Source: Bacteroidales bacterium (GTDB lineage: Bacteria > Bacteroidota > Bacteroidia > Bacteroidales > P3). From it: DNA of 64,000 nt. The stretch's first letter is position 1. The number at the start of each line of letters is the position of its first letter. The notes beneath the pieces were generated by a model. It saw only the letters and a list, made by a program, of their open reading frames with translations, was not told the origin of the DNA and did not search any database. Positions 6,049-63,381 of the stretch are shown piece by piece. Both the position numbers and the translations under genes were made by a program. The stretch spans positions 124,001 to 188,000 of the forward strand of contig JAFVCE010000017.1 in assembly GCA_017479385.1 (NCBI GenBank), given 5' to 3'.

Positions 6049-6092
6049 CGACCTCAACACGACCTTAACCCGACCCTAACCCGACCACAACA
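6049..6092 (+). repeat. Dispersed 11-bp tandem repeat, locus A (4 units)
   Basis: Four contiguous 11-mers: CGACCTCAACA, CGACCTTAACC, CGACCCTAACC and CGACCACAACA. A degenerate unit, CTACCTCAACA, lies just before at 6026-6036, and CTGTTTTTCAA follows at 6093-6103. The locus sits in the 331-base convergent gap between pdxJ (plus) and the DUF262 gene (minus); apart from the 5972-5995 hairpin I see nothing else there. It belongs to the family found at 14675, 22146, 29919, 43655, 52896 and 63338. Confidence 0.85.
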
Positions 6093-6216
6093 CTGTTTTT
6101 CAACCCCTTACGAAACGCATCGTGGCCCCAGTTTTTATCGAAAAAGCCCGCCCATTTTATCGATTGTCACGCCGCAGGTGTCCAAATATGCTGTTTTGTA
6201 AAATCCATTGGTAATG

Positions 6217-7380
6217 CTACCGGTTGCCCTTGGCGCGGTTGTGCGTGCGGCAGAGCATTTGGCAGTTCTCCTCGGATGTCTGTCCGCCACGACTCCATGC
6301 CGCCACATGGTCGGCCTCCATCTCGCTCTCTTTGTAGATTTTGGTACGGTGTGCCTCGTGCCCCATGGCGCAGAGTGGGCAGTTGCTCACTCCTGCCTGG
6401 CGTGCCGCCTCGGTCTGCCGGCGGTATACACGCTGCTTGGTGGCTTCGTCGAACACACGCACATCCAGCAAGCGCGTGTCTGTCGCACCTCCCAGCAGAT
6501 ATTCGAACACCCCCTTGCGGTTCTTCACGCAGGGGTCGTCCATCAGGGTGGCAGCCCAGTCGGTCATCGCCTTGTGGTCGTATGGCTGGGTGTGGTATTC
6601 GTCGTAGTAGCGACCCCACGGCAGGCCGCACATCTCGTTGTAGCGGTCGGCAAAGAGGCTTTCCACCCACGCTATAACGTCCTCGAAATGAACTTGTAAC
6701 TCGCTTATTTGGGTGTCGTGTCTATGGGCTTGCATATATTCCTCAACTTGGCCGTGGCTCACCCAGTCGAGGGCTGTGTGCAGGAAGTCCTGCCGCTTCA
6801 CCGAGCCACGCACGTAGGCGCTCCACTTCTGCACATTGGCGTTGCGGCTGTTGCTGAACACAGAACGAGCCAGCGTAACAAACGGTCCGCTATACACGGC
6901 GTTCAGCTCCTCTTGTGGGTTGAGTGGTATGCCAGCTATGTTGATAGTCTGAAACCATTGCTTGATTTCGCTTTCTGTGCCCTCGCATTCGTAGACCAGC
7001 AGCGAGGTGTTCTCTATCAGCGTCTGCTTATCCTTCGGCAAGGCGTGGAAGCGGAAAGGCAAGTCTCCAGCCATCACCGAGAACTTATCGGTCAAGAAGC
7101 GCCCGAGTGAGGTGATGCGCTGCTGCCCGTCCAACACCTCGAGCCGCCCATCGGGCAGGCAGTTGAAGTAGAGCAACCCCAGGGGGTACTGCTTCAGCAC
7201 CGACTCCACCACTGCCACCTCCTTGCGCCCATTGTCCTCGGCATAGAGGTAGTTGCGCTGATACTCTGGCTGAATGGTCAGCCTGCCGGAAAGTCCATAT
7301 AGGCCTTTCTCCTCCAGTTCGTTGTACACGAACCCGTCGCACAGTTCCGCAACGGTGTACTGCTTCAGTTCAGTCTTCAT
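6217..7380 (-). CDS. DUF262 NTPase/nicking domain fused to a C-terminal HNH nuclease
   Basis: 387-aa protein of the GmrSD/DUF262-HNH type. The N-terminal DUF262 part shows the ParB-like PEYQRNYLY (38-46) and [14 protein letters not shown] (83-96), followed by [12 protein letters not shown] (142-153). The C-terminus is an HNH domain with a zinc knuckle: CPLC (334-337), EADHVAAW (355-362), GG, and CRTHNRAK (377-384), with the catalytic His in EADH. I chose the start at 7380 ([10 protein letters not shown]), since the frame upstream overlaps the preceding methyltransferase and lacks family similarity. It begins 35 bases after the methyltransferase stop, on the same transcript, which suggests a modification-plus-restriction pair. 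In known relatives the DUF262 part senses or hydrolyses nucleotides and the HNH part cuts DNA; that activity is inferred here. Confidence 0.85.
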
Positions 7381-7415
7381 ATATGTACTTTTACTAACAA
7401 TTTGCCGAATGATTT

Positions 7416-8519
7416 CTATTGGCGTGGCTTCTTGAGGATGAGGATACGGGCGTAGGTTTCTTTTCCGCATAGGTGAAAGCGGTGTCCATAGTGCGGGTTG
7501 TCTTCTACATATCTATCCAAACCTATTATCTCATATTGTTCCACGCAATGTTTATCAAGAAATGAAATCGGTACACCCATCACATCGGTGTAATCAGACG
7601 GAATTGCATCTGAATATGGAATTTCTATTGCATTGTACTCGTCATAATGTTCGTATGCATGCTTGTCTTTGAGGTCTTTATGCTTGCTGTACTTTAGGTT
7701 ATCGGCCATTGTCATCAGCTCCAATGGCTGATGTCGGCGACCATGGTCGAGATTGGTAATCCAAATGCTCGAAGAACGACCGAGTATATTTCCATCTATA
7801 AACCGATAGTTGCTGCCTTGCTTCCCTTCCTTTACTAATATGTCTTTCATACTATTAGGAATTCCAAACAACAAATCCTGACTCATAGGTGTTTTCCCAA
7901 CCCAGAGTCTGTTGTTCTTTATGAATGGAAAGACTTCTTTATAGGTTATGCAGTTCTTGTTGGCAATCATTAGAAACTGTTTGTTAGCTGACATTGTCCA
8001 CGCGAAGAACTCGCGGAAGAGCGAGAAAGGCGGATTGGTAACTATAATGTCAGATTCGTCGCGCAGGCGCGTAACCTCGGCACTACGGAAGTCGCCGTCG
8101 CCTTTCAAGTATTTCCACCTCAGGTCTTCGATATCAATGCGTCGGTCGCCGTTCTCGTCCTGCTCAAGGATGAATATTTTACCGTGAGAACGAGTCTTCT
8201 TGCGGTCGTAGTTTGGCGAGTGGATTTCGAACTCGGTCTCGAAGAGCGAGAGTTGCCGCCCATACCGCTCCTGTTTGCGCTCTATGGCATAGCTGGTGGA
8301 GATAAGCTTGCGCAGTCCAAGCCGCTCGAAGTTCTGCGCAAAATACTTGGTGAAGTTGCTCCACTCAGGGACGTCGCAGGGGAGCAGAACTGTTTTGCCC
8401 CGAAACACATCGGGGTTGTAGTCGAGGTAGGCTTCAACCTCGCGCTCTATGTCGTAGTATTGAGTGTAGAACTCGTCATTCTTTGCACTCTTGGCCTTCG
8501 ACAGGCTCTCATTAGCCAT
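7416..8519 (-). CDS. EcoRI-type adenine-specific DNA methyltransferase
   Basis: 367-aa protein of the MTase_EcoRI family (N6-adenine). Evidence: [21 protein letters not shown] at the N-terminus, which parallels the DEFYTQ-DIE opening of M.Eco[19 protein letters not shown], the SAM-binding region; and [16 protein letters not shown], whose NPPF is catalytic motif IV. The start at 8519 ([10 protein letters not shown]) is preferred over the in-frame ATGs at 8552 and 8543 because relatives begin there. The distal partner is the DUF262-HNH gene 35 bases downstream. The leader between the promoter near 8850 and this start is over 300 nt and rich in inverted repeats. No EcoRI-like endonuclease is adjacent, so if this is a restriction system the nuclease is the HNH protein (inference). 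Confidence 0.88.
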
Positions 8520-8580
8520 ATTGATTGACAGCGTTTTGTGCATTGCTATCAATCAATTTGTGGCATGTAGAAAACAGAAA

Positions 8581-8787
8581 GGTGTGAGCCATTCTATTCA
8601 CATTCACGGGAAGTCCTGGAAAATTTGAAACCCGCAGCCAACCAGAATACTCACACCAAAAGTGAGCATAACATCAGTTGGCTAACGGAAATCAAAAAAA
8701 GACTTCCGTGAATGTTTATCTGTGCATTTCCTACACTATCCGCTCGTAGAAGCAGTTTTTCCAGGACTTTTTCTTCGAATGTGAATA
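8581..8787. repeat. Inverted-repeat element in the methyltransferase leader (MITE-like or structured RNA)
   Basis: The outer arms are imperfect inverted copies: TATTCACATTC (8595-8605) plus AGTCCTGGAAAA (8612-8623) on the left, against their complements at 8777-8787 and 8757-8768. A third partial copy, GACTTCCGTGAATG (8701-8714), is complementary to 8601-8615 with one bulge. Additional perfect pairings are GGTGTGAG (8581-8588) with CTCACACC (8650-8657), ATTCT with AGAAT inside it, and AGCCAAC (8636-8642) with GTTGGCT (8677-8683). The set allows mutually exclusive folds. No transposase and no clear target-site duplication is seen. The rest of the 8520-9023 gap holds only the promoter near 8850. 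Confidence 0.6.
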
Positions 8788-8849
8788 ATAGTAATGCTGT
8801 TATTAATTCGTTTCGTTCATGTTCCATTCCTCTCGGAACAATGTGGTTG

Positions 8850-8857
8850 CAAAGTTA
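8850..8857 (-). promoter_or_regulatory. -7 element of the methyltransferase/DUF262 unit
   Basis: TAACTTTG on the minus strand, followed by GCAACC, is identical in its core to the rnpB promoter. The -33 region is poor. A transcript from here would start near 8843 and cross the whole inverted-repeat element before the methyltransferase start at 8519. Confidence 0.6.
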
Positions 8858-9023
8858 CAAAATAATTTTCATTTAACGAAAAAAAAATCACACCCAGTAT
8901 CTCTGCAGGCTGAGAATATGAGTGCAGGAACTTTAAAAAGCCCAGTATATTTGCCCAATTATGAGAAGAATAAGCACGCCAGCCGCTGCATTTTTAATCA
9001 AATAAATTATGTAGAATTTCATC

Positions 9024-9113
9024 CTGTTTTATTCCTCCACCTGTCAGTGGGCTCACCCAGTCGAGCGCGGGGGTGGAGGAAGTCCTGCCGTTTGATGGAG
9101 CTACGAATGTATG
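9024..9113 (-). pseudogene. Decayed fragment of a second DUF262 gene
   Basis: About 85 bases are clearly alignable with an internal stretch of the intact DUF262-HNH gene (near 6728-6825); for example GGCTCACCCAGTCGAG and GAGGAAGTCCTGCCG-like blocks recur in the same order. Translated on the minus strand the fragment reads YIRSSIKRQDFLH, then after a one-base shift PALDWVS and, further on, VEE followed by a stop. This mirrors [20 protein letters not shown]...VEEY at residues 189-214 of the intact protein. It starts directly beyond the stop codon of the 118-aa protein. It is a remnant, not a gene, and shows that the island has been duplicated or rearranged. Confidence 0.8.
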
Positions 9114-9115
9114 GA

Positions 9116-9472
9116 CTATTTCGTGTTATATTTGTCCAGTAGAGCCTGGCGCATATCATCTCTTTCTTTGTTCAAGTTGCGATTTAGAAGTTGCTGCTGT
9201 TCTGGTGACAAATGTACTATTTTCACACCGACAGTCCCCATTCTATTGGTCTGCTCCTTTTGCATATATTGCAACAATTCTTCTGGTGAAAAATCATTTT
9301 GAGAATGTAGTAGAATCTGTGCAAGTTTGCCTTTGCGTTCTTCTATATTGCAATGCTCTATACGCTGTTGGGCCTTTTGTGTATCAATAAAGCCAGTACT
9401 CCTTTTTGCTTCTATTGCAATAAGCATTTGAAGAAGTTCAGGTTCTGTAATTTTTTCTATGTCGTATACCAT
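9116..9472 (-). CDS. 118-aa protein sharing a domain with the helicase C-terminal region
   Basis: I do not recognise a named family. Residues 7-70 (TEPELLQMLIAIEAKRSTG..., FSPEELLQYM) align with residues 507-566 of the neighbouring helicase (TDEEVAHLLLMIENKHPTG..., FSREEIIALL), preserving the IE-K--TG-I-T core and the FS-EE motif, so the two probably share a small helical domain. The rest (70-118) is charged and Gln-rich, possibly coiled coil. It starts 52 bases after the helicase stop on the same strand and should be cotranscribed. Its stop abuts the DUF262 remnant, so the C-terminus could be altered relative to relatives. A role as an accessory subunit of the helicase is inference. Confidence 0.65.
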   Translation of the reverse strand: MVYDIEKITEPELLQMLIAIEAKRSTGFIDTQKAQQRIEHCNIEERKGKLAQILLHSQNDFSPEELLQYMQKEQTNRMGTVGVKIVHLSPEQQQLLNRNLNKERDDMRQALLDKYNTK

Positions 9473-9524
9473 AATACATAATTATTTAAAGTGGAATTTT
9501 GCTAAAACAACATTTTGATTTAGG

Positions 9525-11567
9525 TTATTTAATGCCTATTTCCCAGCCCAGCTGGAGAGTTTTGTTTATCTCTTCCAATAGTTTCTTTTTCTGCACACAG
9601 GCGTGATTGACAACAATGTAATAGCCATCATAAAAAAATGACCTGTTGGGATAGGACGGGTGCGGAGCATCACTGACTAAATATCTTCCTAACGTGGCAA
9701 TTTTGGCTTTAAACACGTTCTCGACACCGGCATCTCGAATGGCTCTGATAAAAGTATCAATACCCTTCTTCTCCTGGATAATAGTTCCATCTTTTTTTCT
9801 TACATACAATCCCTCAAACGGTATTTCACTTTCTTTTACCGTCATAGACGTCTCAGCTGGTGCTAGCTCGGACAGCAGAGCAATAATCTCTTCTCGGCTA
9901 AATCCTTGGCTGACGACATTATCTATCAGTGTCAACATTCGCTCATTATGTTGCATTGTAAGCCACTCTTCTATACTTTCTGTTTTTATTACACCCGTAG
10001 GGTGTTTGTTTTCAATCATCAGCAGCAAATGAGCCACCTCTTCGTCTGTGGCTGTATTGATATTTATGCTGTCATCATCTGTAAGTACTATTATTTCTTC
10101 TTCCATATTGTGTTTTATGTTTTCTATAGGTTTTTTCTCTGCTATGGGTTCGTCAATGTCGTCCGCCTGAGCATTCGCAACAGGCTGATACGTCTCGGGT
10201 GCCTCAATGCTTGTATACACCATTTGCATTTCCTCGTTACCCTCGCTCAAATCCCGTGGCACATATTGATGTTCTTCTAACAGCCCACCGCCGCAGGTTC
10301 CAGTCTCATCCCAATCCTCGCGTCCTTCAAAATGGTGTTGCCAATGTCTGCGAGCCGACGGGAGACCAAATCGGTTGTATAATCCGACATTATCGAGGAA
10401 CAGCACTTTCTCCTTGCCCCAGGCTATCCTAAATCCACGACCGACCTGCTGCAGGTACATCGAAAGCGATTTGGTGGGTCGGCATAGCTGAATAAATTCC
10501 ACATCGGGGCAATCAAATCCTTCGCTGAAAATATTGACGTTGAAAATAATGTCAATTTCTCCTTTTCTGAACTCTTTCACTGCAGAATTGCGTTCTTCCT
10601 TAGGCGTCAAGGAGTCAATGTAAGCTACACGGTAGCCATGTTGGGAGAATAGAGTCGCGAGCATTTCGTTGTGCTTCCTGTTTATTGTATACACAATGCC
10701 CTTCTTCCCTTTAGCAAAACGCTCGTATGTTTCCAATATGCCGGCCCTGATACGGTCTTGGTTCAGCAGACGTTCCATCTCTAGCTCATCGTAATCGCCA
10801 CTAAAGTCGGTCTTCAGGTGGTCAATCTTATACTGCATCTGTGAGTCGGGACGGATAGAGAAGTATTCATAGTTGCATAAGTAGTTCTGCTCAATGAAAC
10901 GATATACTGGCTGACTGAGGATGAGTTTGTCGTATGTATCTGTAAAGGGTTGATGATTCAAGCGACATGGAGTCGCTGTCACACCAAGCAGACGAGCATT
11001 GGGCCACGCTTGTCGTATGCGTTGATAGCTGTCGGCGGGAGAATGGTGAGCTTCGTCAATGATGATAAAGTCGAAATTGGTGTCCTGTTCCCATTGTGTA
11101 AGACGTCTACGACGGCTTAAGGTCTGCACCGATGCCACAATAACATTACGGCTACTTCCGAATACCTTTCCTCCACTTATAGTGCCACACACGTGTTTGT
11201 ATTTACTGGTCAGGGTATCTTCTATCTGTTCCAGTAGTTCCACACGATGTACCAGCACAAGTATTTTGGGTATATTCCACTTCAGACGCTCGTCTATGTC
11301 CTTTTTTGAACAAGCCGAACCTTTATCGTAAAAATAGTCTTGCAGGTCTTTGATGATTGAGGAAAAAAGATGAGTCTTGCCAGTGCCTGTCGGCATCTGA
11401 AGCATAACACCCATCTTGCCCTCAGCCCATGCCCTATAGATAGCCGACTTGTTCTCTTGCTGGTAGGGGCGTAACTTCCTGTTATAGGATTGCCTACGAG
11501 AGTAGGCATCCAATTCGGCAAAATCTATCGTACGAATGGTATCTTTGTCCACAACACTTGTATTCAT
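9525..11567 (-). CDS. SF2 DEAD/DEAH helicase of restriction type, with extra C-terminal domains
   Basis: 680-aa ATP-dependent nucleic-acid translocase resembling type III restriction subunit and UvrB-like SF2 helicases. Motif I is MPTGTGKTHLF (58-68), motif Ia VLVHRVELLEQ (104-114), motif II IIIDEAHHSP (168-177), motif III GVTATPCRL (195-203), motif V NIFSEGFDCPDV (345-356) and motif VI QQVGRGFRIAW (373-383). After the two RecA lobes comes a linker, a helical domain at about 505-570 that is shared with the 118-aa neighbour, and a C-terminal alpha/beta region (about 583-680: DGTIIQEKKGIDTFIRAI ... YYIVVNHAC) that I cannot name with certainty. No nuclease motif is visible, so cutting would need another protein. 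It lies downstream of the WYL regulator and the 24-codon ORF. Confidence 0.88.
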   Translation of the reverse strand: MNTSVVDKDTIRTIDFAELDAYSRRQSYNRKLRPYQQENKSAIYRAWAEGKMGVMLQMPTGTGKTHLFSSIIKDLQDYFYDKGSACSKKDIDERLKWNIPKILVLVHRVELLEQIEDTLTSKYKHVCGTISGGKVFGSSRNVIVASVQTLSRRRRLTQWEQDTNFDFIIIDEAHHSPADSYQRIRQAWPNARLLGVTATPCRLNHQPFTDTYDKLILSQPVYRFIEQNYLCNYEYFSIRPDSQMQYKIDHLKTDFSGDYDELEMERLLNQDRIRAGILETYERFAKGKKGIVYTINRKHNEMLATLFSQHGYRVAYIDSLTPKEERNSAVKEFRKGEIDIIFNVNIFSEGFDCPDVEFIQLCRPTKSLSMYLQQVGRGFRIAWGKEKVLFLDNVGLYNRFGLPSARRHWQHHFEGREDWDETGTCGGGLLEEHQYVPRDLSEGNEEMQMVYTSIEAPETYQPVANAQADDIDEPIAEKKPIENIKHNMEEEIIVLTDDDSININTATDEEVAHLLLMIENKHPTGVIKTESIEEWLTMQHNERMLTLIDNVVSQGFSREEIIALLSELAPAETSMTVKESEIPFEGLYVRKKDGTIIQEKKGIDTFIRAIRDAGVENVFKAKIATLGRYLVSDAPHPSYPNRSFFYDGYYIVVNHACVQKKKLLEEINKTLQLGWEIGIK

Positions 11568-11573
11568 AATGAT

Positions 11574-11648: not shown

Positions 11649-11651
11649 TGC

Positions 11652-12716: not shown

Positions 12717-12736
12717 TTCCCTATCATATTTTTTTG

Positions 12737-12744: not shown

Positions 12745-12760
12745 GCTATTTTTTAGTGTA

Positions 12761-14587: not shown

Positions 14588-14674
14588 TTATATTTCTGCG
14601 AAATTGTGAGCCCTTTGCGGGGGGCTAAACCCTGTTTTGGATGGGGGCTAAGTGCTTGATTGATAGGGCTTGTT

Positions 14675-14718
14675 CGACCTCAATACGACCTTAACCCCTC
14701 TTTGACCCCTTTCTAACC
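14675..14718 (+). repeat. Dispersed 11-bp tandem repeat, locus B (4 units)
   Basis: CGACCTCAATA and CGACCTTAACC are followed by two diverged units, CCTCTTTGACC and CCTTTCTAACC, all in 11-base register. The first 26 bases, with their TGTT flank, are identical to locus E at 43651-43676. CTGATTACCAG follows at 14741-14751. The locus sits in the convergent gap between pepP and clpC (14440-14866), which otherwise holds only the two terminators. Confidence 0.75.
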
Positions 14719-14789
14719 CCTGGGCAATGTTTTTAACTTACTGATTACCAGTGCGGAATGTTTAGGGTGAATAGATACTATTTTCTCGA

Positions 14790-29437: not shown

Positions 29438-30040
29438 TTAAAAGGTGAGGTTGAGGCTTAATGCAGGCGAGGCGACATCGCCACAGGGCAGTAGTGTTGG
29501 TGAGGCTCGTAGGGCGAGCGACTCGTCGAGCTGGAAGTCGAAGAGGTGACCAAAGACGTATGCGTCGAGGAGGTTAAGTGCATAGAACCCTACACCAACG
29601 ATGATGGAGAGCTGGAAGTAGCGGCTGTAGGATTGGTAGAGGTTGTAGATGTTCGACGTGCCGTAGTTGGCGTAGGCTTGGAGGTTCGGTACACCGTTGT
29701 TTATACGATAGAGGTATTCGTCGCGAAAGGTGACCATTGAGTTGTAGTGGCGGTAGGCTACGTAGCCTGTTACGGCGAAAGCGGTGTAGATTATGGGGAT
29801 TTTCCAGGCCTGGTGGTTGTATATTTGACCTGCACCTGGGATGAGCGACCAACGGAGGGCGACCATTGGGGAGTGCTGTTGTAACTCGCTGTCGGTCAGT
29901 GGCGTGGCGACGTTGGTCCGAGGTTGATTCGATGTTGATACGACCTTAACCTGCGAACAAACTGTTTGCGAAGCGATTACGAGTGTTAATAAAAGTATCG
30001 CTTTAGCGCAGCTTGTTTTCGGTTTGTTAATCAGCAACAT
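29438..30040 (-). CDS. DUF5683 domain protein
   Basis: 200 aa with a signal peptide (1-30; ILLLTLVIASQTVCSQ) and then the DUF5683 pattern as I recall it: HSPMVALRWSLIPGAGQIYN (about 56-75), WKIPIIYTAFAVTGYVAY, and FYALNLLDAYVFGHLFDFQL. Two or three hydrophobic helices suggest a membrane protein that is retained in the envelope. The function is unknown. Residues 30-41, right after the signal peptide, are encoded by an 11-bp repeat array (29919-29951). It starts 12 bases after parB, in the usual Bacteroidales parA-parB-DUF5683 order. Confidence 0.85.
   Translation of the reverse strand: MLLINKPKTSCAKAILLLTLVIASQTVCSQVKVVSTSNQPRTNVATPLTDSELQQHSPMVALRWSLIPGAGQIYNHQAWKIPIIYTAFAVTGYVAYRHYNSMVTFRDEYLYRINNGVPNLQAYANYGTSNIYNLYQSYSRYFQLSIIVGVGFYALNLLDAYVFGHLFDFQLDESLALRASPTLLPCGDVASPALSLNLTF
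29919..29951 (+). repeat. Dispersed 11-bp tandem repeat, locus D (3 units, inside a coding region)
   Basis: CGAGGTTGATT, CGATGTTGATA and CGACCTTAACC on the plus strand, antisense to the DUF5683 gene, where they encode about VKVVSTSNQPR just beyond the signal peptide. Only the last unit is a close match to the family. Chance similarity cannot be excluded for the first unit. Confidence 0.55.
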
Positions 30041-37382: not shown

Positions 37383-38828
37383 TTATTTATGCAATATGTC
37401 GTAGGTCTGCAAAAAAGCATAAAGCAGTCTTATGCCGTAGCCCGAAGCGCCAGGTGCATAGTATTGTTGTTTCTTGCTGAAATAGGCCACGCCAGCAATG
37501 TCGAGATGAATGTACGGAACCTCTTTTGCGAAGTGGGCCAGGAACTTACCGGCCGTGATGGTACCAGCCTGGGCTGGGCCACAGTTCTTGATGTCGGCTA
37601 CGTCGGACTTGATGAGTTCGTCATACTCCTTCCAGAAGGGGAACATAACCACTCGTTCATATACTTTTTCGCCCACAATGGAAAGAAGGTTGTATGGAGC
37701 CGACGCATTTTGCTGCATAACTGCAATGCCGAAAGTGGAAATGGCTCGCACTGCGGCGCCAGTGAGCGTAGCTGCGTCGATGATGAGTTCGGGGTCGTAG
37801 TTCTTTGCGGCATAGGCAATTGCATCGGCAAGAATGAGGCGGCCTTCGGCATCGGTGTTGACGACCTCGACCGTGGTGCCGTCATACATAGTCAGTATGT
37901 CGTCGGCAGCGTATGCGTTGAAGCCTGGCCGGTTGTCGGTCATGGGCAGCAGGGCCACGATGTGGACTGGCAGGTTATTGTCGGCAGCGGCAAAGAGCGT
38001 GGAAGCCATCGTGGCGGCGCCAGCCATGTCGGACTTCATCTCCTGCATATAGTCATCGGGTTTGATGTTGAGGCCGCCAGTGTCGTACATAACACCTTTG
38101 CCAACAAGTGCCAACGGTTTGGCGTTGATGGCGTTGTCGGGTTTGTATTCGAGCACCACGAAGCGCGGCTCGTCTACACTGCCACGGTTCACAGCCAGCA
38201 AGCCACCCATACGGAGCGACTCGATTTGACGCTTGTCGAACACGGTGCACTCAACCCCAAGGTCGTCTGCAATCGATTTAAGTTCGTTGGCAAACTGTAC
38301 GGCATTAAGGTCTTGGACTGGGAGGTTAACCCACTCGCGACACCAAAAAATGCGATTCCAAAGGCGCTGGTTCGCCTCGAACTCTTCGGCAGAGAAAAAG
38401 TGGTCGTCGATTTCGATTGTGCCAAGGTGTTCTGGCTGTTTAGTCTTGTAGCGGTCAAAGGTGTAGTCTGCCAGCACCAAGCCTTCTACAAAAGCCATCA
38501 TCTCTTCGGGAATGATGCCCTCGCCCGAGAGGGCGGCGTCGAAGACCTTGTCGGCAATCATCATTGTGCGCAGGCGGTCGGCAGAGCGGCGCAGGTGTTC
38601 TTGGCTCTCTTCGGCTGGTTTGTCGCTGTCGAAGGTGACTACGTAGGCATAATAAGGCAGACGGTCGAAACGGACGATTGTTTCGCGATTTTCGTCACGG
38701 CGCGCGCGCAAAAATTCAATTTCTTTCTTGCTGAAAGGCAGGTTGCGTTCGGCAACGTCGTCGCCAAGCAGGAAAACGAAGTTGCCCTCGTAGCCTTTGA
38801 GGGTTATTGTGTTGAGTTTGCAGTTCAT
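37383..38828 (-). CDS. pepA: Leucyl aminopeptidase (M17)
   Basis: 481-aa cytosolic zinc/manganese hexameric exopeptidase. The C-terminal catalytic domain (about 180-481) shows GKGVMYDTGGLNIKP with Lys and Asp ligands, SDMAGAATM, and the family signature NTDAEGRLILADAIAY with catalytic Arg. The N-terminal domain is poorly conserved, as usual. It overlaps the ABC exporter gene by four bases (ATGA), with pepA second, which suggests a linked role such as peptide turnover (inference). Confidence 0.94.
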   Translation of the reverse strand: MNCKLNTITLKGYEGNFVFLLGDDVAERNLPFSKKEIEFLRARRDENRETIVRFDRLPYYAYVVTFDSDKPAEESQEHLRRSADRLRTMMIADKVFDAALSGEGIIPEEMMAFVEGLVLADYTFDRYKTKQPEHLGTIEIDDHFFSAEEFEANQRLWNRIFWCREWVNLPVQDLNAVQFANELKSIADDLGVECTVFDKRQIESLRMGGLLAVNRGSVDEPRFVVLEYKPDNAINAKPLALVGKGVMYDTGGLNIKPDDYMQEMKSDMAGAATMASTLFAAADNNLPVHIVALLPMTDNRPGFNAYAADDILTMYDGTTVEVVNTDAEGRLILADAIAYAAKNYDPELIIDAATLTGAAVRAISTFGIAVMQQNASAPYNLLSIVGEKVYERVVMFPFWKEYDELIKSDVADIKNCGPAQAGTITAGKFLAHFAKEVPYIHLDIAGVAYFSKKQQYYAPGASGYGIRLLYAFLQTYDILHK

Positions 38829-40456
38829 TGGGTGTGGGTTATAAGTATGATGATTTTGTTTTCTTTCAAGCTTTCGAGCAGGTTGTTAAAGTTCTCGCGC
38901 GAGCGATGGTCGATCCAGGCTGTGGGCTCGTCGAGAATCATAATCTGGGTGTTGGCGTAGAGCAGGCGCGCCAAGGCCAGTCGCTGCCACTGGCCCATAC
39001 TGAGTTCGGCGCCACCTTCGAACATTCGGCCGAGCATGGTGTTGTAACCATCTGGCAGGTTTTCAATTACTTTGTCGATACCGGCTGCAGTGGCGGCGGC
39101 AACCACAGAAGTCATGTCGACCGGTCGATGAATGGCTCCGAAGGCGATGTTCTCGGTCACGGTGCAATTGTAGCGCATGAATTCTTGGAACATAACCCCT
39201 ATCGAAGAGCGGAGTTGTTCGATGTTAATACGACCCAAGTCCCTCCCATTTACCTTCACAACCCCCTCGTCGGGGTCGTACAATCGCAGCAACAATTTCA
39301 CGGCCGTGGTCTTGCCGCTGCCGTTCTCGCCGTCGAGGCGGGTTATTTCGCCTTTGCGAGCATGGAAGTTGAAGTGAGACAATACGTTGCGCTCCATATC
39401 TGGGTAGCGGAAACTGACATCGCAGAATTCTATTTCTTCGACCTGCGAGGGGAATGGTATGGGGTCTTCGCTATTGGTTATCAACGGCTTGAGGTCGAGA
39501 AATTCGAACAGGTTGCCTATGAAGAGACGGTTGTCGTAAAGCCCCGAGGCAGAGGTGGCAGCAGTTTGTAGGTAGCTCATTCCGCGACGGACGGCTTCGA
39601 ACACCATAACGAATGAGCCCACAGACATTAGCCCGGCCGTGGTTTGGCCGAGCATGACGGCAAAGACGGCAACCAATGCAGCGGCTTCGAACAAGGCGCT
39701 TATGCCGTCGGCCCATCCAAGTCGGCGCGATATGGCGAGCAGCTGGGCGACTATTTTGCTACGACTTTCAACGAATTGGCGGCGAAAGAAACTGCTCAAG
39801 CGCAGCGTTCGTATTTCGGCAGCCGATGGCTTCTGCGTGAGAAGCATTCCGAAGTAGTTTGTGCGGCGTAGGGTTTGCGTACTGCTGCGGCGAAAGGTGT
39901 AGATTCGGTGAGCCTTTACAAAGCGAATTATGGCCGTCGGCACTGTGGCTGCAACAATTATGACCAGCAGTAGCCACGACTGGCTGCCCACAATGGCGGC
40001 AATACCTATCATAGAGATGAGTGCCCCCACGAGGTTCATTCCGTTTGTGACAACCTGGATTGGGCGTGCCGAAATTTCCTGCTGCGCACGCTGAAGGGTG
40101 TCGTGGTAGGAAGGCGAGTCGTAGTAACTCATATCGAGCGTCGCAGCTTGGCTTTGCACCTTGTCGCTTATGTTGTCGATGAGTTTTTGGGCCATGATGT
40201 CGCCATTGACGCTGGTGAGTATACTGAACACGCGCTGCATGAAGAAGAGCCCCACAAATGTCACGATAAGTGCAGGGAGTTCGGTCGAGGCTGTGCCACT
40301 CTCGATGGTGGCTGTAACGGCGTCGATAAGGGCTTTGAGTACGCGTAAACTCACGATTGGCAGCAGGCTTTGGAAAACTACATACACCACCCTGCGAGCA
40401 AAGAGCCCTTTGTCGCATTGGCGTACCATGATTATTGTTTTCCAAAGATTGTTCAT
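38825..40456 (-). CDS. ABC exporter (fused permease and ATPase), ends just after the H-loop
   Basis: 543 aa: six transmembrane helices (about 20-310) followed by a nucleotide-binding domain (about 330-543). Walker A LDGENGSGKTTAVKLLL, Q-loop IGVMFQEFMRYN, signature ELSMGQWQRLALAR, Walker B IMILDEPTAWID and H-loop IIILITHTQ are all present. The protein stops one residue after the THT of the H-loop, where most ABC exporters have another 30-60 residues. No frameshifted continuation is present, since the next gene begins there (ATGA overlap with pepA). ATPase activity should be retained; the cargo is unknown. In-frame half-exporter architecture suggests a homodimer. Confidence 0.88.
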   Translation of the reverse strand: MNNLWKTIIMVRQCDKGLFARRVVYVVFQSLLPIVSLRVLKALIDAVTATIESGTASTELPALIVTFVGLFFMQRVFSILTSVNGDIMAQKLIDNISDKVQSQAATLDMSYYDSPSYHDTLQRAQQEISARPIQVVTNGMNLVGALISMIGIAAIVGSQSWLLLVIIVAATVPTAIIRFVKAHRIYTFRRSSTQTLRRTNYFGMLLTQKPSAAEIRTLRLSSFFRRQFVESRSKIVAQLLAISRRLGWADGISALFEAAALVAVFAVMLGQTTAGLMSVGSFVMVFEAVRRGMSYLQTAATSASGLYDNRLFIGNLFEFLDLKPLITNSEDPIPFPSQVEEIEFCDVSFRYPDMERNVLSHFNFHARKGEITRLDGENGSGKTTAVKLLLRLYDPDEGVVKVNGRDLGRINIEQLRSSIGVMFQEFMRYNCTVTENIAFGAIHRPVDMTSVVAAATAAGIDKVIENLPDGYNTMLGRMFEGGAELSMGQWQRLALARLLYANTQIMILDEPTAWIDHRSRENFNNLLESLKENKIIILITHTQ

Positions 40457-43339: not shown

Positions 43340-43654
43340 AGTGTTTTTTTTCATATATCAAAAAAAAAATACACTATTATTTTTAATCGTATAGCATTTT
43401 GTATGCTCCGTTGGCTCATACGAAGCATAACTGTATGTAAAACACATCATTATTATAAGCTAACATTTTTGTTTCTGTTCTAGAAAAAAACAGAACAGTG
43501 TATGTAAAATTAGATAACGGTCAGCATATTTATGTTAATTCATACACTGATTCATTAAGATAGTGTGTTTTTGGAGGATTATTGACTAAGTTGACTTGTG
43601 TTAATGTTCGTAACTTTTTTATGGTACTTAAGTGGTTGAGTATCAGGCGGTGTT
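43340..43654. other. AT-rich intergenic stretch
   Basis: Between the lipoprotein promoter and repeat locus E I see only a hairpin, TTCTGTT (43473-43479) with AACAGAA (43489-43495), and a duplicated GTATGTAAAA. No gene or RNA was recognised. Confidence 0.5.
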
Positions 43655-43687
43655 CGACCTCAATACGACCTTAACCACTCTTTAATC
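43655..43687 (+). repeat. Dispersed 11-bp tandem repeat, locus E (3 units)
   Basis: CGACCTCAATA, CGACCTTAACC and a diverged ACTCTTTAATC. Bases 43651-43676 are identical to 14671-14696 of locus B. The palindrome CTGAATTTCAG follows at 43699-43709. It lies between two same-strand genes, downstream of gcvP and beyond its terminator. Confidence 0.75.
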
Positions 43688-43750
43688 CCTCGTTGGTGCT
43701 GAATTTCAGGCTTTTGTGGATAGGAAATGTAGCTCTGTTTTTTGGGAGTG

Positions 43751-52895: not shown

Positions 52896-52950
52896 CGACC
52901 TCTACCCGATGTTAATACGACCTCAATACGACCCTAACCTATCCTTAACC
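52896..52950 (+). repeat. Dispersed 11-bp tandem repeat, locus F (5 units)
   Basis: CGACCTCTACC, CGATGTTAATA, CGACCTCAATA, CGACCCTAACC and TATCCTTAACC in unbroken 11-base register; the longest array in the window. The palindrome CTGATTTTCAG follows immediately at 52951-52961. It lies in the divergent 407-base gap between ppdK and the NapH-like gene, which otherwise holds promoters and the hairpin at 52953-52997. Confidence 0.85.
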
Positions 52951-58057: not shown

Positions 58058-59427
58058 AAACTGGCATAACGCAATTTACGCTCAATCCAGAGGGCGTATG
58101 GTACCGAAAGCAAGAACGTCAAAAAGTCGGCTACCGGTTGAGAAGCCAACACCCCGTCAAGGCCAAAATAGTGAGGCAAGATGAGCACCACTGGTATAAA
58201 GAAAAGCCCTTGTCGCCCCATACTTATCAACGTCGAACGAAAAGTCATACGAATGTTCTGAAAGAGCATATTAGTGGTTGTTGACAAGCCAATGAGTGGA
58301 AAGGTAATGCATTGCCAACGTAGGGCTTTCGTACCAATATCGACAAGGGTTGCGTCTTCGCTTCGGAACAGCATTATGATGTTCGGGGCGAATAGGTAAC
58401 CACATACAGAGATGACAAGCAAAAACAGTGTAGATACTTCGAGTGCAAAAAGATAGGACTCCCTCACTCTACCATAAAGTCTGGCTCCATAATTGAAGCC
58501 ACTTACGGGTTGGAACCCTTGACAGAAACCGAGTACGACGCTAAAAGCAAACATCATTGTGCGTGTAACCACGGCAAAGGCAGCCACCGTTGAGGCTTCT
58601 TCGCCAGGAGCTGCCCACTTCGCAGCCGCATAGTTGAGACAAATGGCCGCAATACAGTTGAAAGCTTGGCGGCAAAGCGAAGGTAACCCACCACGAAATA
58701 TTTCGTAATAGTTGTGCCAAGTGGGCCTGAAAGAAGCTAAGCGAATGCGGACGCTATCGGCTCGCATAGTGCCACGAAGCAACAAGCACCACGAAAACAG
58801 TTGACTCAAAGCCGTGGCCAGCGATGCTCCAGTTACCCCCATATCGAGGACGAAAATAAACAATGGGTCGAGCACAATGTTGAGGACTGCACCCGACGTT
58901 ATCCCAATCATGGCAAAGCGTGCATTGCCCTGTAATCGCAGTTGGTTGTTCAGTGTTAGGGCCGACATCATGAATGGCGAAGCCAAGACGATGTAGCGAA
59001 GGTAGTCGCACGCACTCGGAACAACGTCGGCTGTTGCACCGAGTAGGACCGCCAACGAGGGCAGCCATATTGTGCAGAGAATGGCAGCGACGACACCGAT
59101 AATTATAGGTGTAAAAAAGCCTGTCGAAGCCATCTCTGTAGCGTCGTCGTAGCGTCGTGCGCCAAGTGCGCGCGAGATGTGATTGCCAGAGCCGTGGCCA
59201 AAGAAGAAGCCAACGGCTTGGATGAAAGTCATATAGGCAAACGAAATTCCTATGCCAGCGGTGGCTTCGGTAGAGAGATGGCCCACGAAGGCGGCATCGG
59301 CAATATTGTAGAATGCTGTCACCACCATACTGATAATGGTTGGCAGTGCCAGCTGGACAACCAAACGCTTGACAGGCGTTTGTGTCATCAATGTGCGCTT
59401 TGCTTCAAGACCCTCGTTGACAGGCAT
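57994..59427 (-). CDS. MATE family efflux transporter (second copy)
   Basis: 477 aa, about 12 transmembrane helices. The N-terminus (TPVKRLVVQLALPTIISMVV and YNIADAAFVGHLSTEATAGI) and FFGHGSGNHISRALGARR match the MATE fold. It is only distantly similar to the MATE at 694-2100, so not a recent duplication. The C-terminal tail beyond residue 455 (SFQSSSSGSSMSPTDFSD) is Ser-rich and lies in the region overlapping the AsmA-like gene, so it may be a stop-shifted extension. It starts eight bases after the HtrA protease stop, in the same unit. The substrate is unknown. Confidence 0.88.
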   Translation of the reverse strand: MPVNEGLEAKRTLMTQTPVKRLVVQLALPTIISMVVTAFYNIADAAFVGHLSTEATAGIGISFAYMTFIQAVGFFFGHGSGNHISRALGARRYDDATEMASTGFFTPIIIGVVAAILCTIWLPSLAVLLGATADVVPSACDYLRYIVLASPFMMSALTLNNQLRLQGNARFAMIGITSGAVLNIVLDPLFIFVLDMGVTGASLATALSQLFSWCLLLRGTMRADSVRIRLASFRPTWHNYYEIFRGGLPSLCRQAFNCIAAICLNYAAAKWAAPGEEASTVAAFAVVTRTMMFAFSVVLGFCQGFQPVSGFNYGARLYGRVRESYLFALEVSTLFLLVISVCGYLFAPNIIMLFRSEDATLVDIGTKALRWQCITFPLIGLSTTTNMLFQNIRMTFRSTLISMGRQGLFFIPVVLILPHYFGLDGVLASQPVADFLTFLLSVPYALWIERKLRYASFQSSSSGSSMSPTDFSDDVME

Positions 59428-59435
59428 TTACGTCG

Positions 59436-60503
59436 TTACTTGCGGACTATGGCTGTGGTTCCTTTAAGGTTGAGGAGTGTCACCATGACAGTATTGGCAC
59501 GGTTATTGCGTATGTATTTTACCTTGATGACGTCGCCAGGACTGAAACGCCCCAGTTCTTCCATCATCTCGGCAAAGGTGCTGACCTCGACCCCTTCTAT
59601 TTCGGTGATGATGTCGCCAGTGGTCATGCCAGCAGTTGCGGCGGCTCCTGTTTGAGCCATCCGGGCAATGTAAAGACCTTTGGTTTGGTCTGAGCCAAGC
59701 TCGGAAGCCATACGCGGCGTGAGTTCTAACACATTGACGCCCAAATAAGCACGTTGCACGTAGCCATAGCGCCGCAGGTCGCTGGCCACCTTCGAGGCGA
59801 GGTTTGAGGGTATGGCAAACGAGTAGCCGATGTAGTTGCCGTTGCCAGAGGCGATGGCGGTGATGATGCCGATAAGTTTGGCTTCGGCATTGACAAGGGC
59901 TCCGCCCGAATTGCCCGAATTGACGGCTGCGTCGGTTTGGAGAAACGACTCGATGGGGCTCTCCAATCCGCCAGGGTTCTCGATGATATTCATATTGCGA
60001 GCCTTGGCGCTAATGATGCCAGCCGTGACGGTGGATGTAAGGTTGAATGGGTTGCCGATGGCCAGCACAGGCTCGCCAATACGAACCGCGTCGCTATTGC
60101 CAAACTCGATGAAAGCGAGGTCGTTGGCCTCGATTTTTATGACGGCCAAGTCGGTGGCTGGGTCGTTGCCCACAAGGCGGGCAGGCAGTTCTCGGCGGTC
60201 GTTGAGGGTGACGCTGATGCGCTCGGCATCCTGAACCACGTGGTTGTTGGTAAGGATGTAACCATCGGCAGTGATTATGACGCCCGAGCCGTAGGCGCTA
60301 TAGGTCTGGCGCTGAAGCCCCTGGTTGATTATCATGCCGAAAAACGACTGGTAGAGCGGGGTGAGTTTGGTCATCTCGGTTTTGATGTGAACCACGCCGT
60401 CGATTGTTTGGGCGGCAACATCGGTGAAGTCGGTTTGGCGCTGCGCACACGACATTTGTGTGAGGCATAAAGCAGCGATGAGTATGCAGATATATCGTTT
60501 CAT
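59436..60503 (-). CDS. HtrA/Deg-type periplasmic serine protease
   Basis: 355 aa: signal peptide with a possible lipobox (LCLTQMSC, Cys19), a trypsin-like domain (about 30-250) and one PDZ domain (about 255-345; ARMAQTGAAATAGMTTGDI and TEIEGVEVSTFAEMMEELGRF). The catalytic triad is His88 (ILTNNHVVQDA), Asp118 (ATDLAVIKIEA) and Ser199 (NSGNSGGALVN). One PDZ, as in DegS, rather than two as in DegP. It acts in envelope protein quality control and could cleave an anti-sigma factor such as the one at 26133-26456 (speculative). It leads a unit with the MATE gene. Confidence 0.92.
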   Translation of the reverse strand: MKRYICILIAALCLTQMSCAQRQTDFTDVAAQTIDGVVHIKTEMTKLTPLYQSFFGMIINQGLQRQTYSAYGSGVIITADGYILTNNHVVQDAERISVTLNDRRELPARLVGNDPATDLAVIKIEANDLAFIEFGNSDAVRIGEPVLAIGNPFNLTSTVTAGIISAKARNMNIIENPGGLESPIESFLQTDAAVNSGNSGGALVNAEAKLIGIITAIASGNGNYIGYSFAIPSNLASKVASDLRRYGYVQRAYLGVNVLELTPRMASELGSDQTKGLYIARMAQTGAAATAGMTTGDIITEIEGVEVSTFAEMMEELGRFSPGDVIKVKYIRNNRANTVMVTLLNLKGTTAIVRK

Positions 60504-60559
60504 ATAAAAAATAACAGCAAAAAAGAAAAAATATTGTGTGCAATTCGAAAAAAAAGTTG

Positions 60560-60567
60560 TAAATTTG
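60560..60567 (+). promoter_or_regulatory. -7 element of the glycosyltransferase unit
   Basis: TAAATTTG at 60560-60567, ten bases before the glycosyltransferase start codon at 60577, in a 73-base divergent gap. The short distance implies a very short or nearly leaderless 5' end. Confidence 0.55.
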
Positions 60568-60576
60568 CAAATTGTT

Positions 60577-61692
60577 ATGAAGGTAGTAATTCTTGGACCA
60601 GCACACCCCTACCGCGGCGGAATTGCCGCATTCAGCGAGCGCTTGGCCGCTGAATATCAGGCCGAAGGCAACGACGTAAAAATCGTTACTTTCACCCTGC
60701 AGTACCCTTCGTTTCTTTTCCCAGGCAAGACCCAGATGAGCACAACCGAACCTCCCGCCAGCCTCGACATTAGTAGAATGCTCAGTTCGGTCAACCCCAT
60801 CACATGGTGCCGCACAGGCCGCGCCATTGCCAAAATGAAGCCCGACCTGCTCGTCGTTCAATATTGGATGCCTTTCATGGCCCCCGCCATGGGCGTTGTG
60901 GCGCGCATTGTGCGCCGCAGCGGGACAAAGGTGGTATCGGTGGTTCACAATATGCTGCCCCACGAGCGTCACTTCTTCGACAAACCGCTGGCAAAATATT
61001 TTGTTCGCTCTATCGATGGCGTAGTGGCTATGTCGCACCTGACAGTTGACGAGTTGCACGAGCTGGACAACACGAAGCGACACGTCCTCTCCCCTCACCC
61101 AATCTACGACCACTATGGCGCCATCGTGCCACGCGATGAGGCTATAACCCACCTGCAGCTCGACCCCTCGAGTCGCTATCTGCTTTTCTTTGGGTTTGTG
61201 CGCGGATATAAAGGACTTGATTTACTGCTTCAAGCCATGGCAGATAAGAGATTGACCGATAGGAATTTGAAGCTAATCGTTGCAGGCGAGTTCTACGACG
61301 ACCCGCAACCCTACCTCGACCAAATTCAGAACCTCGGACTTGCCGACCGTGTGGCTTTATTCAACGACTATATTGCCGACAACGAGGTGAGCAACTACTT
61401 CTGCGCGGCCGACGCCGTTGTTCTTCCCTATCGCAGCGCCACTCAAAGCGGCATTACGCAAATAGCCATGCACTTTGCGAAGCCCATGATTGTTACCAAC
61501 GTCGGAGGGCTGCCCGACATCGTGAAACACGAAGTTACCGGCCTCGTTACCCAGCCCGACGCCGATTCTATTGCCTCGACCATTGCCAACTACTATGACC
61601 GCGACCTGCAGCAAACTCTCGCTGCCGGTGTGGCCAACGAAAAAGACCTATACACTTGGGATAAGATGGTTCGCGCCATCGAAACACTCTGA
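60577..61692 (+). CDS. GT4-like glycosyltransferase
   Basis: 371 aa with the GT-B fold. The start at 60577 (MKVVILGPAHPYRGGIAAFS) is preferred over an in-frame codon at 60538 that would lie upstream of the promoter. N-terminal Rossmann motif GPAHPYRGG; C-terminal half with FGFVRGYKGLDLLLQAM (about 200-216) and the nucleotide-sugar region ADAVVLPYRSATQSGITQIA (about 282-301), with VGGLPDIVKHEVTGL. Probably a cell-surface glycan or LPS transferase; donor and acceptor unknown. The next gene is a GmhB-type phosphatase 17 bases downstream. Confidence 0.88.
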   Translation: MKVVILGPAHPYRGGIAAFSERLAAEYQAEGNDVKIVTFTLQYPSFLFPGKTQMSTTEPPASLDISRMLSSVNPITWCRTGRAIAKMKPDLLVVQYWMPFMAPAMGVVARIVRRSGTKVVSVVHNMLPHERHFFDKPLAKYFVRSIDGVVAMSHLTVDELHELDNTKRHVLSPHPIYDHYGAIVPRDEAITHLQLDPSSRYLLFFGFVRGYKGLDLLLQAMADKRLTDRNLKLIVAGEFYDDPQPYLDQIQNLGLADRVALFNDYIADNEVSNYFCAADAVVLPYRSATQSGITQIAMHFAKPMIVTNVGGLPDIVKHEVTGLVTQPDADSIASTIANYYDRDLQQTLAAGVANEKDLYTWDKMVRAIETL

Positions 61693-61709
61693 CAACCATA
61701 TATTTAGAT

Positions 61710-62270
61710 ATGAAACGACGCACGTATATAGAAACAGGAGGGTCGCTATTCCTCGACCGCGATGGGGTGATAAACAGACTTCTCGTCGACTCATACGTGC
61801 TCAACGCCGACCAGTTAGTGTTGGAACCAGGTGCCGTCGAAGCTATCGCGCTCTGCAACAAGTTGTTCCGCCACGTTTTTGTAGTCACCAACCAGTCGTG
61901 TATTGGCAAAGGGTTGACAACTTTAGACGAGCTACAGCGCATACACAGCAAACTAATTGCCGAAGTCGAAGCCGCTGGTGGCCACATAGACCACATCTAC
62001 GCCTGCTACGACACCTCGACCGCACCCGGCCCCTATCGCAAACCCAACATCGGTATGGCGCTCCAAGCCCGACGCGACTTCGTTGGCGTGAAACTGCGCA
62101 AATCTGTGATGGTGGGCGATACCTACAACGATATGCTTTTCGGCTATCGATGCCGAATGCAGACGGTGCTCATTGGGCACCACGACGTCGAGGCCGCGGC
62201 CAACCCGCACCTTGTCGACTTTGCTTTCCCGTCGCTCGCCGACTTCGCTGCGAGCTTGCAACAAAACTGA
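61710..62270 (+). CDS. HAD-IIIA phosphatase (D-glycero-manno-heptose 1,7-bisphosphate 7-phosphatase type)
   Basis: 186 aa. HAD motif I LFLDRDGVINRLL, motif II VFVVTNQSCIGKGLTT, motif III with YRKPNIGMALQA and motif IV MVGDTYNDMLFG. This pattern, including the N-terminal extension and the RDGVIN segment, fits GmhB or histidinol-phosphate-type HAD enzymes. Beside a glycosyltransferase, heptose precursor synthesis for LPS is the most likely role. The gene order GT4-HAD-esterase is compact. Confidence 0.82.
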   Translation: MKRRTYIETGGSLFLDRDGVINRLLVDSYVLNADQLVLEPGAVEAIALCNKLFRHVFVVTNQSCIGKGLTTLDELQRIHSKLIAEVEAAGGHIDHIYACYDTSTAPGPYRKPNIGMALQARRDFVGVKLRKSVMVGDTYNDMLFGYRCRMQTVLIGHHDVEAAANPHLVDFAFPSLADFAASLQQN

Positions 62271-62290
62271 ATGCCAAAATCCGTTTACCA

Positions 62291-63226
62291 ATGAAACGCC
62301 AAATTGCAACCCTCATGGCCGTGCTGGCCACCTTGTGCGCCCTCGCCCAACAAACCTACCAATATGTCACGCGCAACGACTCTACGCACCTGCTGCTCGA
62401 CGTCTACCGTCCGGCCAACCCTCGCGCCGACCACGCCTGTGTGCTCTATATGTTTGGCGGAGGCTTCTACCTCGGCGAGCGCAACAGCGAGCACGTGGTG
62501 CTGGGATGCCAGCGGTTGGCCGACCGCGGATTTACCGTTGTTTCTATCGATTACCGCCTCGGTCTGCGCGATGCCGACCTCGCCAAAGCCAACCTTTTTA
62601 ACGTCCACTCCTATTTCGAAAATGCCGTGAGCGTAGCCGTCCAGGATTGCTCGGCCGCTATAGCTTGGATTTGCAACCATGCCGACGAACTGGCCATCGA
62701 CACATCTCACATAATCCTCACCGGCAACAGCGCTGGCGCCATCTCGGTGTTGCAAACCGACTACTGCCGTGCCAACTCGTTGCCCGACGCGGCAGAGTTG
62801 CCACAGTCGTTCAAACCCCTCGCCGTGGTGCCATACGCGGGCGGAATCATCTGCCGCAACAGCAAGTTGCACTATGCCACAGAGCCGGCACCAACCTGCT
62901 TCTTCCACGGCACGGCCGACCGCATTGTGAACTATAAACGCCTGCGCTCGTCGCTCTCCACATCGCAGTTCGGAGCCGACCGTGTGGCCAAAGAGTTCAG
63001 CCGTAAGGGCTTTGACCACTGGGTGTTGCGCTTCGATGGACTTGGCCACGAGGTGGCCAGCTACTTGCCCTATACCATCGAGGAGTTTGTAGCCTTTGTC
63101 GATGCCGTAGAGGCCGGTCGCCACATGGACTACGACGCTCACTGCACCGACAGCCGTTTTGTCCCGACCGAGTGGAGCAAGCGCACCGTTTTCGACCTCT
63201 ATCTGCGCAACAACGTAGCCAACTAA
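62291..63226 (+). CDS. Secreted alpha/beta-hydrolase (carboxylesterase/BD-FAE type)
   Basis: 311 aa. Signal peptide (RQIATLMAVLATLCALAQ, cut near residue 20). Oxyanion motif MFGGGFYLG (54-62) and nucleophile GNSAG with Ser147 are the HGGG/GxSxG features of the carboxylesterase and xylan/feruloyl esterase family; the catalytic Asp and His are probably near TADRIVN and GLGHEV. Start at 62291 from the signal peptide; a longer open frame upstream overlaps the phosphatase gene and is rejected. It is probably a periplasmic or secreted deacylase of glycans. It follows the phosphatase gene by 20 bases. Confidence 0.85.
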   Translation: MKRQIATLMAVLATLCALAQQTYQYVTRNDSTHLLLDVYRPANPRADHACVLYMFGGGFYLGERNSEHVVLGCQRLADRGFTVVSIDYRLGLRDADLAKANLFNVHSYFENAVSVAVQDCSAAIAWICNHADELAIDTSHIILTGNSAGAISVLQTDYCRANSLPDAAELPQSFKPLAVVPYAGGIICRNSKLHYATEPAPTCFFHGTADRIVNYKRLRSSLSTSQFGADRVAKEFSRKGFDHWVLRFDGLGHEVASYLPYTIEEFVAFVDAVEAGRHMDYDAHCTDSRFVPTEWSKRTVFDLYLRNNVAN

Positions 63227-63337
63227 ACGGGCAGCCTTCCCTATTTTTTCGACCTTTATTTACACTCTGTTCGGCCACCCATCGACAGTGGTTCTATGTG
63301 TCGACGGATGGGAAAGTTATCAACAATGTTTATTCCT

Positions 63338-63381
63338 CGACCTCAACACGACCTCAACACGACCTTAATACGACCCTAACC
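63338..63381 (+). repeat. Dispersed 11-bp tandem repeat, locus G (4 units)
   Basis: CGACCTCAACA twice, then CGACCTTAATA and CGACCCTAACC, all in register. The palindrome CTGAAATTCAG follows at 63420-63430, embedded in the terminator. It lies in the convergent gap between the esterase and alaS. Confidence 0.88.

Follow-up and report, generated by a model that had tools for sequence, protein, structure and literature searches.

Evenly spaced arrays of 11-bp repeats in a Bacteroidales genome and its relatives as possible borders of chromosome domains

The seven arrays and the genome-wide set

The window (64,000 nucleotides of a Bacteroidales bacterium; GenBank assembly GCA_017479385.1, contig JAFVCE010000017.1, positions 124,001 to 188,000, forward strand) carries seven arrays in which 11-bp units of the CGACCTYAAYM type directly adjoin each other. 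All seven lie where the initial annotation had placed them, on the strands given there, and the 26-base identity it described between loci B and E (the second and fifth arrays) is real. Four of the arrays are between convergent genes (6049, 14675, 22146 and 63338) and one (29919) overlaps an open reading frame (ORF), also as described; the array at 43655 is between tandem genes and that at 52896 between divergent genes. We propose, tentatively and with slightly less than even confidence, that these arrays are part of a chromosome-wide set of wrapping sites that would anchor the borders of ~10-kb domains, with about one site per 9.8 kb on one contig of the same genome (C5, see below). The sites are given here with scores from a profile (R1) built from 45 copies in that genome, including the window sites 6049, 14675 and 43655; classes A and B are described below.

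6034..6093, + strand: class A site with the array CGACCTCAACA CGACCTTAACC CGACCCTAACC CGACCACAACA, in a convergent gap; 61.8 bits
14649..14674, + strand: class A left arm (TAAGTGCTTGATTGATAGGGCTTGTT), an example of the imperfect inverted ends
14661..14719, + strand: class A site in the convergent gap between M24 peptidase and ClpB genes; 53.4 bits
22145..22190, - strand: site in a convergent gap; 46.0 bits
29919..29951, + strand: weak three-unit site in the 5′ part of ORF 29438-30040 (- strand); 17.2 bits, E 0.0002
39213..39235, + strand: weak site inside ORF 38825-40456 (- strand), missed by the initial annotation; 16.2 bits, E 0.0004
43640..43696, + strand: class A site in a tandem gap downstream of the glycine dehydrogenase gene; 52.8 bits
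52902..52952, + strand: five-unit site in a divergent gap; 37.0 bits
63333..63382, + strand: class B site in a convergent gap, adjoining a palindrome at ~63405-63445; 51.7 bits

R1 thus recovers six of the seven arrays at 37 to 62 bits and the seventh (29919-29951) as a weak match; the ORF that holds the latter is of 200 amino acids, and the gene caller's later start left the array in a gap. Beyond these and the weak site at 39213, the window has two R1 matches at chance level (8.2 and 6.1 bits). Tandem Repeats Finder at a score of ≥36 reports six period-11 arrays, five at the annotated loci and a sixth at 59138, and misses those at 43655 and 52896. A gene with GmrSD_N and HNH domains (6217-7470, - strand), possibly a restriction enzyme, adjoins the first array.

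The initial annotation had made its family of dispersed repeats depend on a genome-wide scan, and this favours the arrays. In G000, the 2.28-Mb genome (24 contigs) to which the window belongs, the pair pattern CGACCTYAAYMCGACCTYAAYM gives 60 + 59 = 119 exact matches, against none for the reversed pattern, and profile matches number at least 153 (150 of 1,255 candidates scored). Nor are the arrays confined to this genome, as the exact pattern is also present in two metagenome-assembled genomes (MAGs), RUI415 and RUG14866. Among the matches listed from a GTDB scan, it occurs in 36 stretches of RUI415, two of RUG14866 and one of Cupriavidus pampae, and the whole-genome exact counts are 49, 2 and 1, respectively; it is absent from the sampled 36 congeners and 24 genomes of the same order. 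A phage origin was rejected, with viral contigs giving no pattern matches (plasmids were not searched).

Structure and spacing of the sites

Of 87 distinct G000 sites analysed, 59 are of class A and 28 of class B. The class A consensus is TAAnTGnYTGAnnATCAAGnnTTGTT, followed by CGACCTCAAYA CGACCTTAACC CCTCTTTAACC nnnCCTCAACC and then CTGnTTTTCAGGCAGTTA; class B sites have different left ends, several with CGATGTTAAYA. The first two class A units and the preceding TT follow from how the search pattern and class A were defined, and the ten positions after the fixed class A part (CCTCTTTAAC) are strongly conserved too (1.1 to 2.0 bits). The third unit, which the search pattern does not cover, is similar at most of the 59 class A sites, and unlike units recur in the same order, so that a telomerase-like addition of identical units is disfavoured. 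The constancy of the third unit also speaks against neutral tandem-repeat slippage or an assembly artefact as the origin of the arrays. Units do expand in places (e.g. in the FolC gene and at locus L085), but even spacing in three species contradicts this explanation, the zero counts of the reversed controls for the G000 and G028 patterns also weigh against it, and we regard it as barely credible. The L085 array (2223-2387, - strand) is very long, with ~14 CGACCTYAACC units, and begins 4 bp past a stop codon. At the sites the units adjoin without spacers, a departure from clustered regularly interspaced short palindromic repeats (cas genes were not searched).

Within class A, conservation is stronger in the core than at the ends. 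The termini are imperfect and variable TAA...TTA inverted ends with no conserved pairs, and class A subfamilies have left-arm sequence in common (by eye). Inverted ends and shared left arms both favour the main alternative to our proposal, a non-autonomous mobile element with target immunity, whose transposase would reject targets close to a copy already present, so that copies would fill the genome while keeping at least 4 to 5 kb apart; we consider this unlikely, and the greater conservation of the core counts against it. So does the outcome of the search for a RAYT-like (REP-associated tyrosine transposase) gene that the initial annotation had suggested: Y1_Tnp (PF01797) has no match in G000 or in two of the other genomes analysed (G061 and G028), one in G062 and three in G002 (other transposase families were not searched).

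The 11-bp phase runs ~100 bp past the core. When 60 bp around each core are masked, the 81 intergenic regions with a site have self-match z scores of 4.7, 3.9, 3.6, 3.0, 2.7 and 2.7 at lags of 11, 22, 33, 44, 55 and 66, compared with 1.5, 0.8, 2.5, 0.3, -0.6 and 0.3 in 72 regions without a site. GC phase peaks at a period of 11.0 between -150 and -30 and at 11.5 between +66 and +172, and in neither interval does any of 2,000 shifted controls reach the observed value (80 of the 87 sites, with in-gene and array-only cases omitted). TCG recurs about every 11 bp in the left arm and CGA about every 11 bp in the right arm, and the arms are therefore inverted, which is directly visible at L008. The palindrome YTGANNNTCAR, with exactly three central bases, is frequent near sites (34 of 66 copies on C5 with 2.05 expected, and 6 of 22 in G028 with 0.61 expected), and in the G061 loci 20 of 43 copies of TGAWWWTCA are beside sites where 1.8 are expected; the reversed control of the palindrome is absent beside sites in G000, G061 and G028. 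Only 5 of 67 copies of YTGANNNTCAR in the other congener samples are beside sites (1.48 expected), and for this reason we have kept it out of the definition of the element.

Spacing was read on whole or nearly whole contigs in three genomes (C5 of G000, C1 of G028 and C1 of G002). On C5, a complete contig of 385,470 bp, R1 sites of ≥25 bits were counted with neighbours within 300 bp merged, giving 40 sites with a mean gap of 9,823 bp, a coefficient of variation (CV) of 0.38, and a minimum and maximum of 4,645 and 21,501 bp. No gap is shorter than 4 kb, against means of 13.3 under a uniform null and 11.2 under a gene-context-matched null (0 of 5,000 draws each). Four hits score lower, at 16 to 19 bits (E ≤0.0021); three of them fall in the two longest gaps and one in a 10.9-kb gap, and when they are added the 43 gaps range from 4,444 to 14,511 bp. 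Two other rows were dropped, one of 13.4 bits (the cut end of a counted site) and one of 11.5 bits (L224 19591, E 0.066). The strand order on C5 has no evident polarity by eye. Elsewhere in G000, 4 of 113 gaps among the matches listed (profile and exact) are below 4 kb, where 32.7 are expected (minimum 18).

Even spacing holds in three species (G000, RUI415 and G028). In RUI415, a sister species, a profile R2 has at least 152 matches, of which 150 are listed (scoring covered 150 of 1,022 candidates), and none of the 115 gaps between the 150 listed sites is below 4 kb; with exact matches and three weak hits added, 2 of 120 are, where 3,000 simulations average 38.9 and never fall below 23. In G028, a distant congener, the pattern AATCGRAGAACAATCGRAGAAC has 412 + 392 matches with ≤2 mismatches and its reversed control has none. 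For G028 C1, 260 of 266 kb were read without any profile (a coding period-22 repeat was dropped), and inverted AATCGAAGAAC arrays together with GTAGGAGTTGA-type arrays form 23 intergenic sites with a CV of 0.35 and a minimum gap of 4,988 bp (P ≤0.0004 under each null). One further array, at the edge of the contig and classed as genic, was excluded from this count but retained for the family-exclusion and hard-core tests. These two unlike families are never closer than 6.3 kb to each other (rotation P 0.004), and their mutual exclusion is a point against a mobile element. The mobile element is favoured by a model of exclusion only (hard-core), which fits the strong C5 sites (P 0.09 for CV and 0.31 for maximum gap); with the four weak hits included the values are P 0.011 and 0.004, and in G028 they are 0.059 and 0.024.

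Relatives and gene context

Among 25 locus pairs compared between G000 and RUI415 or RUG14866, both members have a site in six, RUI415 is without a site in eight, one has a diverged copy (L181, 21.5 bits), and ten are undecidable; the shared count is biased upward, as the RUI415 loci were fetched because they bear sites. Matched DNA of the sister MAGs is mostly 66 to 85% identical, and no relatives at strain level were found. The eight RUI415 loci that are without a site have a short or unrelated gap instead, which favours a mobile element, and it is because positions turn over between species that the mobile extragenic repeat, one of three options in the initial annotation, stays a live rival. 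At the six shared loci the site adjoins the same gene with each species having its own version, and RUI415 has its own consensus (TCCGAACCnTACC CGACCTCAACC CGACCTTAACC CGAACCTAACC YATCTA).

A broader view comes from a blind sample of 20 stretches of 20 kb from 19 congeners, picked without regard to repeats, in which Tandem Repeats Finder (score ≥36) reports 46 period-11, 45 period-9 and 32 period-7 arrays. The stronger period-11 arrays of congeners (24 regions read, including some ClpB loci) have units that are unlike from species to species and are often in inverted pairs. In intergenic DNA, congeners have a self-match excess of 0.014 to 0.021 at lag 11, compared with -0.001 to 0.002 in 18 stretches from other families of the order (two of 20 being too short). 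Lags 7, 8 and 9 are in excess in congeners too, and the tandem gaps of the window have no excess at lag 11. Judged from these genus samples, the 11-bp phase recurs, often as inverted arms, with unit sequence varying. Two congeners have near-perfect 11-bp-phased inverted repeats with unrelated units (L088 4346-4457 and L128 10162-10254). In the congener G002, contig C1 (L245-L259, 300 kb) has 118 period-7 and 38 period-14 arrays against 14 of period 11 at a score of ≥44, and the period-7 and period-14 arrays are another dispersed short-repeat class there.

Units that are homogeneous within a genome and differ between sister species at the same gene ends would also fit a base-specific protein coating the 11-mers, of nucleoid or partition-like type (for example a ParR-like ribbon-helix-helix protein), with all sites following as its specificity drifts. 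The near-invariant core is in keeping with this, and ParR of plasmid R1 requires at least two 11-bp repeats (PMC9426499). Two unlike G028 units on one ruler are not easily explained by one such protein, however, and we think it rather improbable.

Site occupancy differs with gene orientation. Among C5 gaps of ≥60 bp, 24 of 30 convergent, 10 of 99 tandem and 3 of 33 divergent gaps are occupied; the three sites called genic are two within genes and one at the contig end. Of class A sites that are outside genes and have both neighbours called, 54 of 55 are 3′ of at least one gene. This favours a transcription-end element (a Rho loading site, terminator or mRNA 3′-end hairpin), another of the options raised initially. 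It is disfavoured because there is no conserved RNA structure (RNAalifold finds no conserved pairs in the 55 of 59 class A copies aligned, and an RNA hairpin was rejected), because the C-rich strand is sense at 6 and antisense at 15 of the 21 tandem class A sites, and because G028 sites are more often in divergent gaps (13 of 21 occupied, against 3 of 11 convergent). For the latter two reasons a Rho-loading site with an 11-nt beat on the C-rich strand was also rejected. Ordinary terminators are beside several sites (by eye) and an element of this type would not predict even spacing; it is thus very unlikely. A search against Rfam at gathering thresholds had no hits at the sites of the window or of four loci. 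The window does have a SAM-II riboswitch match (3442-3534, + strand, 49.2 bits) and a bacterial RNase P RNA, class A (239-617, - strand).

Several sites are within genes. One example is a PMT_2-family membrane protein that holds a class A site and is 4 amino acids shorter there than two orthologues; the same position scores 17.6 bits in RUG14866 and nothing in RUI415. A second is a family 2 glycosyltransferase that is the same length as in RUG14866 and RUI415, with four other congeners 1 to 3 amino acids longer; the site position scores 11.5 bits (E 0.005) in RUG14866 and has no match in RUI415. Comparison of these two proteins thus indicates no insertion that could be the site, a point against a mobile element. 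In FolC (L023 889-2265, - strand) ~nine units occupy a variable loop, where in-frame expansion of the 11-mer makes an 11-residue protein repeat. The same loop has ~four units in RUG14866 (17.6 bits) and a diverged copy in RUI415 (25.8 bits), and no array is seen by eye in the five other congeners aligned (of 11 fetched), so the G000 array is an expansion; its presence in one loop in three species still argues against mobility. A DUF819 protein has an array in a loop whose length varies among orthologues, and MurC and LpxD also match, although protein constraint may raise their scores.

A proposed role and comparison with known systems

Neither the even spacing nor the architecture that relatives share with other unit sequences was recognised in the initial annotation. 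Of its three options, the nucleoid-protein binding array fits best, because the phase extends ~100 bp past the core and the sites are evenly spaced. Since the units differ while the phase stays, the reader of the sites would sense DNA shape (bendability) more than bases, and the even spacing suggests a job that needs one site per ~10 kb; with the exclusion between unlike families and the sites within genes, these features point to a function requiring one phased site per ~10 kb. We propose that the 11-bp-phased stretch would wrap a protein at each site, and that the wrapped sites would anchor the borders of ~10-kb chromosome domains, for example by holding supercoil domains. The predicted reader is DNA gyrase or another DNA-wrapping nucleoid protein, gyrase being the likeliest by analogy, given the 130-bp motif of its sites and what it does at BIME-2 (see below). 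A bolder form, which we offer as a possibility at well under even confidence, is a built-in ruler: a shape-coded wrapping site about every 10 kb would mark a supercoil-domain border, with letters rewritten between species, two alphabets on one ruler, and sites fitted into genes where no gap is free.

Several observations weigh against this proposal. The arm periods (11.0 on the left and ~11.5 on the right) differ from the 10.75 of the gyrase motif, and period, core conservation and G028 gene context do not fit gyrase perfectly; the preference of G028 for divergent gaps weakens a simple link to positive supercoils. The near-invariant class A core exceeds what shape alone would need, although this is partly a selection effect of the search pattern. 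None of five tests shows significant conservation at the synonymous positions of sites within genes (lowest P 0.06 and 0.10). The exclusion-only model is rejected clearly only when the four weak C5 hits are counted, and counting the dropped 11.5-bit match would create a gap of ~3.1 kb. There are close pairs in RUI415 (3,554 and 3,680 bp) and four in G000 outside C5 (1,557 to 3,426 bp, among the matches listed). G002 has only 10 intergenic arrays in 300 kb, with a CV of 0.56 and evenness of P 0.04 to 0.05, the short-gap test being powerless there. Period 11 is not outstanding by the blind count alone, given the near-equal number at period 9.

Supercoil domains of E. coli are 10 to 400 kb; the barriers between them seem to be positioned at random, and their identity is described as yet to be established (PMC6907758). 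If wrapping sites do anchor domains, the borders of domains could be mapped and tested directly from evenly spaced, recognisable sites, and chromosome architecture would be encoded in sequence phase rather than in sequence. If instead a mobile element accounts for the sites, a repeat family with a 4 to 5-kb exclusion zone that operates across unlike sequence families would still be striking.

Among known systems, Rickettsia palindromic elements also have copies within coding genes; here in-gene copies can be without an insertion that could be the site. The matS/MatP, KOPS/FtsK and parS/ParB systems use repeated chromosome-organising sites that are short, single, and regional or polar, whereas here there are long phased arrays along the contigs examined. 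A literature search gave nothing relevant to such arrays except a survey of repetitive extragenic palindromic (REP) sequences (PMC3733652). REP sequences and bacterial interspersed mosaic elements (BIMEs) are like these arrays in being dispersed, mostly intergenic near gene ends, with inverted units, ~100 or more copies, and a proposed link to supercoiling. A REP is a palindrome of 20 to 40 bp with a GTAG or CGTC tag, and no such tag is seen by eye at class A ends; one G028 family (A) is flanked by CCGTC/GACGG. The arrays differ from REP/BIME in having no RAYT in three of five genomes, no conserved class A hairpin, 11-bp direct-repeat arms, even spacing, and species-specific units on a constant phase.

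Gyrase sites in E. coli have a motif of 130 bp, both flanks of which vary in GC content with a 10.75-bp period (PMC6379681), and gyrase activity at BIME-2 is reported in a preprint (PMC12393610). Strong gyrase sites have two helically phased GC flanks around a central segment, an arrangement that the sites here appear to share; the sites here have a period of 11.0 to 11.5, a sequence-homogeneous core and even spacing. In the window, ten flanking genes were scanned and none matches a partition family (parM/parR). The ParR/parC system of R1 type nonetheless offers a close parallel in its 11-bp direct-repeat arrays, and parC DNA wraps a protein scaffold (PMC9426499); unlike parC, a single plasmid locus, the arrays described here occupy at least 153 sites on the chromosome and have inverted arms.

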